From NCBI GenBank assembly GCA_002709695.1, contig PAQF01000026.1:155646-219645 (forward strand): a DNA stretch of 64,000 nucleotides, written 5' to 3'. The DNA is from Candidatus Poribacteria bacterium (lineage in GTDB: Bacteria > Poribacteria > WGA-4E > UBA9662). Under the pieces are notes generated by a model. It was not told the origin of the DNA. It did no database searches and saw only the letters and a program-made list of their open reading frames with translations. How positions within the stretch are numbered: position 1 is the first letter of the stretch; the number at the start of each line of letters is the position of its first letter. Below are positions 12,243 through 17,908 of the stretch, piece after piece. A program made the position numbers and the translations under genes.

Positions 12243-13226
12243 CTAATTCAGAATTTTGATAGAATCAATCAGGTCTCTTCCATGTTTTCGAACACTAACC
12301 TTGTCATCAACTTGAAGAATATCGCCGTTTTTCCCAATCAAAATTGTTATACGCTTGCAATTGCCTTTCGGTTTTGATATTGCATGGTAAAGCAAACTGA
12401 TATTACGACCAGTATCAACCAACAAAGGGAATCCAAGACTATATTTATCAACAAATTTCTTATGTGATTCTTGGTTTTGTACACTAATACCATAAACAGC
12501 AGTTTCAAGAACTTTGAAATCGTTCAACTCATCCCGGAGTGAACAGACCTCCATCGTTCAGCCAGGTGTCATATCCATTGGGTAAAATGCAAGGACTATG
12601 TTCTTCTTACCTTTGAGGTTACTAATTTGGTGCGCTTTACCATCCTGATCATATGCGATAAAATCTGGTGCTGGTTGTCCGGGTTTTATCTGGAATTCCG
12701 CTGTATCCTTAATCATCTGCACCAAATCGGAACCATGGTTTTGTACATCAACTTCTTTGTCAATAGCACGAATATAACCGGCACGATCAATTATAAACGT
12801 AACACGGTTGGATCGAGACTCGTCTCGTGATCCACTATACTGTTGACTAACAATATAATCTGTATCAGCTAAAAGTATGAATCCAAATTCTTCAGCTTGG
12901 CTAAATTGTTTATGTGATTCTTGGTCATCAGTGCTGATACCATAAACAACTGTTTCGGTAGCCTCAATTTCACTTAGCTCGTCACGGAGCGATCGTAATT
13001 CCGCAGTTCAGCCACCAGTAAAATCTTTAGGATAAAAAGCCAAAACGACGTTTTTCTTACCAAGATGCCGAGATAGCTCATACTTTCGACCATCATTACC
13101 CATCAAAGCAAAATTGGGAGCAACCATACCAACTTTTAAATTTTCCATGACATCTTCCTCAGTTCTAATATCTAACACAACTATTACAAAAGCCAAAAAC
13201 ATACTCGCTAAAATTTTTGGTATCAT
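12243..13226 (-). CDS. Tandem two-domain peroxiredoxin with two in-frame UGA (Sec) codons
   Basis: One 328-codon frame encodes two BCP/PrxQ-type peroxiredoxin domains, predicted to reduce hydrogen or organic peroxides. The only in-frame stops before the terminal TAG are TGA at 13008-13010 (residue 73) and at 12558-12560 (residue 223). Each occupies the peroxidatic Cys of PxxxTxx[19 protein letters not shown] and [19 protein letters not shown] checked every triplet between them and found no other stop. Both domains keep the catalytic Arg ([16 protein letters not shown]). Domain 2 has a resolving Cys five residues on (C228); domain 1 has none. Residues 4-19 form a hydrophobic signal or anchor ([14 protein letters not shown]), suggesting export. 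The start at 13226 has GGAGG 8 nt upstream. Standard gene callers would split this into fragments at 13008 and 12554. Confidence 0.85.
12527..12540 (-). promoter_or_regulatory. Candidate bacterial SECIS hairpin, Prx domain 2
   Basis: Positions +18 to +31 after the second UGA form ACUC-CGGGAU-GAGU, the same 4-bp stem, 6-nt loop and spacing as the domain 1 element, again with G at loop position 2. The outer pair is A-U here and G-C in domain 1, a compensatory difference falling on synonymous Ser and Leu codon positions. Confidence 0.5.
12977..12990 (-). promoter_or_regulatory. Candidate bacterial SECIS hairpin, Prx domain 1
   Basis: On the coding strand, positions +18 to +31 after the first UGA form GCUC-CGUGAC-GAGC: a perfect 4-bp stem with a 6-nt loop starting at +22. 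Bacterial SECIS elements need a short stem, a 3-14 nt loop with G in the first two positions and 16-37 nt spacing from UGA; all are met. It lies within the SLRDEL codons. Confidence 0.5.
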
Positions 13227-13267
13227 GTCTATAACCTCCATTGGTAAATGGTACAAGATTTCATCAT

Positions 13268-16200
13268 ATGAAGCAAACTTATCCTAAAAGTCAAAAACAG
13301 AATAGATTACATACATCTATTCCACTTGCACTTCTACTACTCATCGCATGCCAACTTGGCCATTCACAACAGAACTTCAATTTCCAAAATTTCACACGGG
13401 CCAGGAACAATATAAGTAGCAACAATATCCACCTAATTGCTGAAGACCAATTGGGACAGATCTGGACAATCACAGATCATGGGCTGAATTTCTTTAATGG
13501 ATTTTGGTCAGAAATTCCTATTTCGGATACAGCAACTTGCCTCACCTTTGCGAATGAAAACGAGATTTGGATTGGAACAGATAATGGCATCCATCGAGGT
13601 CTTCTAGACTTAAACCGGATCAATTGGCTTGATCACTATACAACTGAAGAAGGGTTATTAACTAACAAAATTCTTACCATGATTCAGCGAAAAAATGGCG
13701 AGATATTGGCAGGAACACTACTCGGCATCAACCAATTCGATGGAAAATCATGGCAAATAGCCTTAAACATAGAAACACATATCATTTATGAAGACAGGAA
13801 CTCCGAGCTCTGGTTTGTGCATAATACAACCCCAAATTTCTTAAGCCATTTCGATGGAACGAATCTTTTCACATTTGGTCCAAACGATGGGATACCTAAT
13901 AGTGACATCCGAACCATTGGGCAGGATAATAACGGCAACATCTGGATTGGAACAAACAAAGGGATTGCAATTTATGATGGCCTGAATTGGCAAATTGTTA
14001 CCACTGCTGATGGCATCATCAGCAACAATATTCAGATAATAACAACTGACAGACAAGGCAGTATATGGATAGGTACAAATGCAGGCATTAGTTTTCAGAA
14101 CCCCATAGGCTGGATTAACCTAACAAAAGCAAATGGTTTAGCAAGTAACCACATCAGCTCGCTTCTATCCTCCACGAACGGCGGAATTTGGATTGGAACT
14201 AGCGACAATGGACTGAGTTTTTCAGATCGTTCGTGGCAACCAATCCCAACTAATGGAAAAAACAACCAAGTCAATACGATGTTCTCTGACCAGAACAACA
14301 CAATTTGGATTGGCACACAAAATGGAATTTTCCGCACAAACGGGAGTGATGTTATACGAGAGAAAAGGGAATTTGGAGCAATTCGTAAAATCATTCAGGA
14401 CACCAATGAAAATTTGTGGTTGGCAACCAGCTTAGGTCTCGAAAAATTTAATGGTTTCTCATGGGAAAAATTCTATTTTAATAATGGTACAAACGAAGTT
14501 CAATCGATCTGTGTCGATAGATCGGACCACCTATGGATTAGTACCGGAATTCTACTATTTAATGACCCTATTGGTTTCTTGCCTGACTTAGTCAGATACG
14601 ACGGTAAAACTTTTCATCAGATGTCCAACATTGCAACAAAAATTAACCGTACAATCACACAACTATTCGCTGATCCATCCGGTTGGATCTACTTGGCAAC
14701 GGCCGGTAACGAAGTAATGGCTAGTTCCCTCTGGATCTATGATCAGAACACTGGAACATTAGAGGAAATATCTGGAATACAAATGGGACGAATTTCAACG
14801 ATAGTTAGCACAGAAAGAGATATCTGGGTTGGTTCGGACAACGGAATTCATATTTTTGGATCAAGACAAAAAAAAACAAAACTTCGGCTCACTACAGCTG
14901 AAGGCTTAATTGACAATCATGTACAGACATTATACGTTGATAGTAAAAACCGGGTCTGGGTTGGCACAAATGATGGCGTAAGTATCTTTCAAAATGAACA
15001 AATTTTTCGCACGCTGACAGCAAGTGACGGACTCAATAGCAATAACATCTCCGCTATCATTGAATCAACGGACGGAAGTTTTTGGTTCGGCAGTTTTGAT
15101 GACGGAACTTTAAGCCGGTTTATACAGGAGAATATACCACCAACTACACGTATCATTAGCGGCCCAATGAACGGAGAAACTGTTGGTGAAACAAGTGTAA
15201 ACTTTAGGTTTGAAGGTGGCGATGCCAGCAGCTCAAACTTTCGCTACCAATTTCGGATTAACAACGGTAGCTTTAAGCTAACAGACAACAACGGCTTTGA
15301 TAATCGAGCTTTTTTAGCGGGTCTCGAGGACGGACCACACCAGTTTTTGGTCCAAGCCATAGATCAAGAAGGGAACATTGATCAGATTGGCGCTAAATCC
15401 AATTTTGTGGTTGATTCATCAATCCCCATCTCACAAATATCACAACCTAACAAAAATCAGGTTATTAACGGTATTTTCGATATCGAAGGAACCTCAAACG
15501 ACCCAACAGATTTTTCCCATTATGAAATCCATATTTATGACACTGATATTGTTTTTAGCAAAAAAAACAGTGTTGAAAACAGTCTACTATACAGGTGGAA
15601 TACTTTCACTGTCAATGACGGTCAATATCAAATACAACTCATTTCATTCGATCAAATAAACGGTTCTTACGACCGCCAACATAAAAGTGAAGTAACCTTA
15701 GCTATCGAAGTTGACAATACTGAGCCTGAAGTGAGAATAATCCGACCACGGCAAGGTGCCATCATATCTGGTAACACAGAAGTTGAAGTATCAGCATATG
15801 ATAAACACCTAACACATTACACATTGGAATACAGTCCTATCGGAAACAAATGGCAAAAAATTGGCGAGTTTCCAATTGACAGCTCGCCAGCCGTTTCTAA
15901 GCGTTTGAGCTGGAATACCTCACAGATCGACGGCTATTCTTCTTTACGTGCTAAAGCTACAGACCAAGCTGGAAATATAGGAATATCACAAACAGTCTCA
16001 ATTAGACTGAAAAATGATTCCGCACTACCAATAGCACAACTGCGCAAGATAAATCGACCTGTTAGTGGCGAAGTTGCAATCTATGGCACAGCGAAAATGC
16101 GTCCAAACAAGAAAACGGGGCTGAAAGACACTTTGGTTGAATTTCGCCCTACGACAGGGGACACAAATTGGCAAGTGATTTACCAATCTCAACTCCAATT

Positions 16201-17908
16201 CGACGATGAGCAGATTTTCCGCTGGAACACCTCTGAAATCCCCGATGGGAAGTACCTTCTACGGTTGATCGCAATGGATTATAATGAATACGAATCTAAA
16301 AACGAAATCGAAATCTCATTGGATAATATTTCACCAACAGTCATCATCGATTCACCCAAAACAGGTGATGTTTTACGAACTGATGTCATCCCAATCATTG
16401 GCACAATGAACGACCTAAATTTCGACATCTATATCCTAGAATACCTTGCTCCCAACGGTGCATGGGCTGAGATCTCCAAATCAGTCGAATCACTTGTATC
16501 CAGTAAATTAGGGAACTGGAATGCTACTCAGCTTATAGCTGGCAGATACCAAATACGCGCAACTGCTTTTGACCAAGCAGGGAATTTCACTCAGACAACA
16601 CCGCCAATTGAAATTGTTCTCGACGATACAAGAGCCACTGCGACATTGACTAAGCCAGAGCCTAATACATATATTAACCATTCGGTACAAATTTACGGCA
16701 TTGCCACAGATGAGAACTTCGATCGCTACACCCTTGACTTTCGCACTATGAGTTCGAAAAACCAGTGGCACCTAATCGATACTCAACGAGATGAGCTAAA
16801 AGGAGAAGGACTTCTTTCCAACTGGAGATTATCCTCGTTGAATGACGGAGCGTACGAAATCCAGCTTACGGTATTTGACAAATCTGGCCAATTTTCTAAA
16901 GATCAGGTAAATGTCATTGTTGATGACACCACGCCAAAAGGAAGAATCACCTCTCCAGTCTCCGGACAACAAGTTCCACCAAATATTAGTATTATCGGAT
17001 CTGCATACGACCTCAATTTCAAGAGATACATCATTGAGTATGGAGCAGGTAAAGCCCCAATTCTGTGGCGATCAATTTCGAAGATAGGATTTCTCGAAGC
17101 CGTTTTAGAAGGTCCCTTAGCAGAATGGAATTCCTCAAACTTAATTGGAGAATATACACTTCGCTTAACCGTCGAAGATCAAGTGGGTTTAACCAGCAGT
17201 CACCAAATACACGTGTTCTTCAAAGACTATGTCGACAATCAGCGTATTGAGCGTGTTGAAAGCCTAGATGGTCAAGCTAGTCTCGTTCTCCCAACAAATT
17301 GCTTAACTGAACAAACTATTATTACTATCAACCCAAAAACTCATGGTTATGAATTTGCTCCTCGAGATCTAAAACTCAATCCAAGGAAACCAGCAACAAT
17401 TGAATTTATGAACCATCGATTTATGAACCATCGTAAGAGCAATAAAATTGGTATCTTTAGGTGGGAGAATCATCATGATAGGTCACTTCCAGGTTCTTGG
17501 AAATTAATCGGTGGAACACCAAATTACCATAAGCAAACGATATCAACAACTATCACAAAACTTGGTCAGTATGCAGTCTTAGACCTAGAAAATCCCATCG
17601 AAGAACACATTGATGGCGCAATAACTAGGCTAAACTCACAACCACGGCTATTTTCACCGAACCACGGTGAAGAAACAGCGATCTCTTTCCATTTGAACAA
17701 GCCTGGTAACGTAAAAATTAAGATTTACAATATTGCAGGCCGTTTGCGACGTAGCTTTGAAGGGAAAAACCTCATTAGTGGAAATCATGTTTTTTGGTGG
17801 GATGGGCGAGACAATCAAAACGACCTTGTAGTAAGCAATATATATATAATAGCAGTTGAAACTGAAAATACAATCAAAACGAAAACTGTTGTCGTTAAGA
17901 ACAATTAA
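13268..17908 (+). CDS. Giant secreted Reg_prop beta-propeller / Ig-like protein with FlgD-type C-terminal domain
   Basis: Exported protein of 1546 residues. A signal peptide ([18 protein letters not shown]) leads into about 600 residues of two-component-regulator propeller repeats, recognised by recurring IWIGTxxG and GLxSNxI, enough for two seven-bladed propellers. A Y_Y_Y-like domain follows (begins [13 protein letters not shown]). Then come six Ig-like modules of about 100 residues, each with an LNFxxYxLEY-type strand and a DGxYxIRLxAxDQxG motif. The last 90 residues are FlgD/type IX-like ([36 protein letters not shown]). The propeller and Y_Y_Y layout is that of hybrid two-component sensors, but there is no transmembrane helix or kinase. 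I chose ATG 13268; a TTG at 13241 would run towards the divergent Prx gene. Confidence 0.8.

Follow-up and report, generated by a model that had tools for sequence, protein, structure and literature searches.

The window, the 64,000-nt stretch of Candidatus Poribacteria DNA analysed here, carries on its minus strand a tandem peroxiredoxin (Prx) coding sequence (13226..12243) of 327 amino acids, with an ATG at 13226, a TAG at 12245-12243 and a Shine-Dalgarno sequence, GGAGG, 8 nt upstream of the ATG. A sequence-only reading of this DNA had described one 328-codon frame encoding two fused Prx domains and interrupted only by two TGA codons, both at the catalytic position of PxxxTxxC (73 and 223). 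That description stands, the frame consisting of 327 residues and the TAG; the strand, absent from that reading, is minus, the plus strand across 12243-13226 being closed by many stops. TGA codon 73 (13008..13010) and TGA codon 223 (12558..12560) are the only internal in-frame stops, and the frame and the orthologue columns predict selenocysteine (Sec) at each, as the peroxidatic residues of domain 1 and domain 2 (U1 and U2 below). Residues 1-26 (13149..13226) have a hydrophobic core and form a probable export signal or membrane anchor, as judged by hydropathy and AxA-like ends. Pfam, motif and AlphaFold2 (AF2) evidence places domain 1 at about residues 31-175 (12702..13136) and domain 2 at about residues 179-327 (12246..12692). 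Domain 1 is of a 1-Sec type in this genome, with Arg at U+5, and domain 2 pairs its Sec with a Cys at U+5 (PrxQ-like resolving Cys 228). Each TGA is followed on the same strand by a predicted bacterial SECIS element (bSECIS) 21 nt after the UGA. The first is a weak core (12977..12990; −6.7 kcal/mol) with a 4-bp stem, GCUC/GAGC, and the loop CGUGAC, and the second a hairpin (12522..12544; −13.5 kcal/mol with flanks) with the loop CGGGAU. The divergent neighbour of the gene, at 13241-17908 on the plus strand, encodes 1555 residues in which two-component-regulator-type propeller repeats and a FlgD-like C-terminal end were recognised by eye.

Pfam detected two AhpC/TSA stretches in the protein (PF00578, E=2.9e-64), and both TGAs fall within PxxxTxxU, where Sec replaces the Cys of PxxxTxxC; the domain 2 motif reads PMDMTPGU, with the Thr of PxxxT retained. 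The active-site residues Arg141 and Arg292 are also present. AF2 returned a confident two-domain model (pLDDT 88, pTM 0.85) of two thioredoxin-like folds behind a hydrophobic N-terminus, with pLDDT about 50 over residues 1-26. Hydropathy in a 15-residue window exceeds 1.6 within the first 40 amino acids in 57/63 of the orthologues described below, many of them with AxA-like ends, suggesting on hydropathy that the tandem peroxiredoxin is probably exported. PrxU, a name used for the Sec-Prx of Eubacterium acidaminophilum, is likewise a peroxiredoxin family. The protein scores only 97.4 bits against the PrxU model (NF040737), far under its cut-off of 270, and is therefore not a PrxU member. The structures closest to the AF2 model were BCP, AhpE and PrxQ, with AhpE also among the best sequence matches. 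AhpE is a cytosolic enzyme. Domain 1 resembles this 1-Cys peroxiredoxin of Mycobacterium tuberculosis (PDB 1xxu, 4x1u), but AhpE is a single domain with Cys, whereas the protein described here has two domains with predicted Sec. The best NCBIfam match was the thioredoxin-dependent thiol peroxidase NF006960 (PrxQ/BCP; 172.5 bits against a cut-off of 140). Like PrxQ/BCP (PDB 3drn, 3ixr), domain 2 has a resolving Cys at +5; PrxQ, however, is a single Cys domain and not a two-domain protein whose first domain is without a resolving Cys.

A search that allowed read-through, covering 85 genomes from the phylum, 73 of them in the same order, recovered full-length orthologues (49-82% identity) from 63 genomes, all within the 73-genome order and representing all four of its families. 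TGA occupies both alignment columns in 63/63 orthologues (126/126 sites), with no TGC, TGT or other codon, and both Sec positions and both active-site Arg are invariant. No internal TGA was present elsewhere in the 63 full-length sequences. The sequence-only reading had argued that chance or decay would not place the TGAs exactly there, and the presence of both in every orthologue bears this out; TGA-to-sense variation at unrelated positions in homologues, which it had named as evidence to the contrary, is absent among the 63. No intact copy is present in ten of the order's 73 genomes: seven have nothing full length, and one each has a split frame, an N run or a single-domain form. Median pairwise dN/dS in the N-terminal (signal) region was 0.64. 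It fell to 0.06 for mature residues ahead of U1, 0.09 for the stretch from U1 to U2 and 0.11 for the part that follows U2, and since values remain low past both UGAs, translation beyond them is under strong selection. At neither site has any of the 63 orthologue species reverted to Cys, though one base change would suffice, and the old question of why proteins retain Sec thereby becomes directly testable.

The Sec machinery, for which the earlier reading had proposed a search, is present in the genome of the window (87 contigs, 96% complete). A tRNA-Sec (70.6 bits against a cut-off of 47; ARAGORN anticodon TCA) lies directly after the adjoining selB (343.6 bits), and selA (577 bits) and selD (360 bits) were also found. 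The selD gene (L019, 1357-2454 on the minus strand of contig C48) has a UGA at residue 21 within the CGU-AAK active-site loop, and SelD of this genome is, by its predicted sequence, itself a selenoprotein. Among the orthologue-bearing genomes selA was found in 58/63, the remaining five being fragmented drafts in which no selA was detected. TGA is the terminator of 12/45 long non-overlapping open reading frames in the window and the terminal stop of 6/63 orthologues of the tandem gene; the genetic code is therefore standard, in agreement with the earlier argument that TGA ends other genes of the window, and an altered code was ruled out.

RNA structure is in excess and synonymous change is suppressed at two sites of the gene and no others, the stretches of ~13 codons that directly follow the two TGAs, as bacterial SECIS elements require. 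When folding was compared with that of synonymous recodings at 33 positions, the two lowest mean z-scores were at U1 (−1.16) and U2 (−1.59, offset 152), the others along the gene ranging from −0.64 to +0.55. The observed/expected ratio of synonymous change was 0.36-0.37 just after U1 and 0.26-0.32 just after U2, against mostly 0.7-0.9 in windows clear of the UGAs. The U2 hairpin has 8 base pairs and an apical loop, CGGGAU or CGUGAU, 21 nt past the UGA; across orthologues its pairing is kept in 96.8% of cells, with double-sided changes at two pairs. For the U1 hairpin the figure is 87% of cells, and base pairs at the foot of its stem alternate between C-G, G-C and A-U; RNAalifold returned no common structure for the U1 set. 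Under the published bSECIS rules (PMC13188914; energy limit −7.5 kcal/mol), 63/63 U2 elements qualified, as did 65% of U1 elements and 22% of control positions. The first element of the window itself fits the geometry and misses the energy limit, at −6.7 kcal/mol.

Taken together, the frame, the conserved TGAs, the selection past them, the RNA signature and the Sec machinery make it highly probable that the gene encodes two BCP/PrxQ-like domains with selenocysteine at both peroxidatic positions; Sec insertion and activity are what we infer from these data. Two in-frame stops in one gene, in assemblies of an error-prone MAG type, might instead reflect a decaying pseudogene or sequencing errors. 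The chance of this is negligible, as the same two codons recur in 63 independent assemblies, six of them single-contig (G023, G046, G080, G082, G083 and G084), and purifying selection is strong downstream of both stops. Because the design is kept in 63 related species, the gene is real, neither broken nor a product of sequencing error. A reassigned or near-cognate tRNA might instead insert Cys or Trp at the UGAs and so yield a protein without selenium, but nothing specific favours this reading beyond the fact that ordinary peroxiredoxins have cysteine there. It is very improbable given that TGA terminates genes in the window and some of the orthologues, that TGC and TGT appear at neither site in 63 species, and that the SECIS-like signature stands at the two UGAs only, in a genome with the full Sec machinery. 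Low selenium leads to termination at Sec-UGA codons in general. The two UGAs might accordingly act as regulatory switches with partial readthrough, giving a product truncated at UGA 73 or 223 when selenium is scarce, and a terminal stop is indeed never found at codons 73/223. We regard this too as very unlikely, since a product ending at residue 72 would be missing most of domain 1, its peroxidatic residue included, and the sequence bears no mark of a regulated switch.

If both UGAs are read as Sec, SelB and Sec-tRNA-Sec would decode UGA 73 and UGA 223, each insertion being directed by the stem-loop that begins a few codons past its UGA, and the probably exported protein would reduce hydroperoxides. 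Sec as the peroxide-reacting residue is established peroxiredoxin chemistry, and here it comes with the conserved PxxxTxxU and Arg141/Arg292. Each selenolate would attack the peroxide to give a selenenic acid. In domain 2 this would form a selenenyl-sulphide with the Cys five residues on, to be reduced in turn by a thiol donor; domain 1, which in the species of the window has no such Cys, would depend for its reduction on domain 2 or an external thiol. The two domains are unequally equipped across the orthologues. Thr at U−3 is present in domain 1 of 63/63 and in domain 2 of 13/63 (Gly in the other 50, the orthologues of family f4), while Cys at U+5 is present in domain 2 of 63/63 and in domain 1 of 24/63. 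The protein of the window has Thr in both domains and, at U+5, Cys in domain 2 only and Arg in domain 1. This complementary retention, together with the invariance of both Sec and of the active-site arginines, is what would be expected of an asymmetric relay in which domain 1 meets the peroxide and the Sec-Cys pair of domain 2 has as its main role the reduction of domain 1, either in the same chain or in the partner chain of a dimer. Such a relay, which would apply above all to the family lacking the Thr of PxxxTxxU in domain 2 and which refines rather than opposes the two-Sec peroxidase reading, is possible and on balance unlikely. The more specific proposal of an exported peroxiredoxin in which one Sec domain serves as in-chain reductant of the other, by Sec-to-Sec transfer, is slightly more doubtful still; there the duplicated domains may split the work, domain 1 contributing the peroxide-activating Thr and domain 2 the resolving Cys. 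Against a relay, domain 2 of the protein of the window still has PxxxT (PMDMTPGU), so that both domains can be peroxidases here. From the sequences, the favoured arrangement is one of two peroxidase sites, in which domain 2 is probably resolved by its own Sec-Cys pair and domain 1 by an external thiol. No conserved neighbour points to a reductant across families: the gene is flanked in f4 by membrane protein, PhyH-like and Gfo/Idh-like genes (named by eye) and in f1 by others, and because neighbours vary in this way gene context names no electron donor. The unequal loss of the catalytic Thr and the resolving Cys between the domains offers a testable case of subfunctionalisation.

In a maximum-likelihood tree, the domain 1 sequences fell into a single clade (99/99), and those of domain 2 formed a second that also took in one single-domain protein (100/100); at lower support (94/90), the two clades grouped along with two outside Cys rows. 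Single-domain Sec peroxiredoxins from other families of the phylum were placed elsewhere. Since the domain 1 and domain 2 clades group together, a duplication that predates the diversification of the order is the most likely origin of the tandem, as far as the sequences indicate. One single-domain Sec peroxiredoxin, L088 (G016:C35), is clearly domain 2-like after its Sec (75/106 identities vs 49/106), and before its Sec it is domain 1-like on the weak evidence of 28/43 identities vs 24/44; this sequence may have been derived from the tandem gene by an internal deletion. Genome G045 has, besides a normal copy, a paralogue (L085, G045:C108) whose domain 1 has Ser at the Sec site while domain 2 retains its Sec; the first domain has apparently been inactivated, to judge from that substitution. 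Adjacent, unfused pairs of Cys peroxiredoxin genes were seen at L118 (6001-7001) and in G092:C74, and these pairs possibly picture a pre-fusion stage.

The gene is real and conserved, and it is a variant of Sec-peroxiredoxin and no new class of system. Single-domain Sec peroxiredoxins are known in bacteria, as the sequence-only reading had stated: a 2026 catalogue of 119 prokaryotic selenoprotein families (PMC13188914) has a Prx entry with one Sec, and Prx is listed as TxxU in PMC9312934. The protein described here shares with this Sec-Prx (PF00578/COG1225 Bcp type, PxxxTxxU; PMC13188914 Table 1, PMC9312934) the domain family, the motif and the peroxidatic Sec, but where the catalogued form has one Sec, it has two domains, two predicted Sec per chain and a probable export signal. 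Two Sec in a bacterial PF00578 protein are also found in the Prx-like thiol:disulfide oxidoreductase with UxxU, and in other 2-Sec families of the same catalogue (PMC13188914); in the UxxU families, however, both Sec belong to one motif, whereas here they lie 150 residues apart in two duplicated domains. The available text of the GOS survey (PMC2398784) describes Prx fused to a PP2C-type phosphatase and neighbouring genes for Prx and Prx-like 2 selenoproteins, so that Sec-Prx is known to enter fusions and gene pairs; that text describes no Prx-Prx fusion.

The earlier reading knew of no described two-domain form with two Sec, and the tandem two-Sec architecture was likewise absent from the available portions of selenoprotein surveys of 2008, 2022 and 2026 and from NCBIfam. 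Phrases for a tandem or double peroxiredoxin had no match in the open-licence literature, and a report outside that body is possible. In three other phyla, those of G087 (Planctomycetota), G094 (Chloroflexota) and G086, no tandem form was found at E<=1e-48 among 392, 400 and 388 genomes (~1,180), a search without a positive control there. A scan of public genome contigs for relatives back-translates Cys, so that only Cys forms could be found; its best matches were single-domain Cys peroxiredoxins, L118 being two adjacent unfused genes. A viral origin was also considered and rejected, six pattern matches in viral contigs encoding no relative. The selenoprotein catalogue gains a two-domain, two-selenocysteine peroxiredoxin architecture, found in all four families of the order, in a gene that ordinary annotation would split into fragments. 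Any ribosome translating the gene must pass two Sec-UGAs that are separated by 150 codons and have a hairpin each, and the presence of two in one message lets serial Sec insertion by bacteria be tested on a natural gene.

Other redoxin-like proteins were noted alongside the tandem gene. Three sequences from the same order (L099, L100 and L101), of ~370 residues, begin like lipoproteins and contain both carboxypeptidase-regulatory-like repeats (recognised by eye) and a Prx-like domain with FYRGGWUPFCR (UxxC), and by their sequence are probably another selenoprotein fusion. L096 (G017:C411) is a different two-domain redoxin-like protein, with UIFC (UxxC) in domain two and neither Cys nor Sec at that place in domain one.
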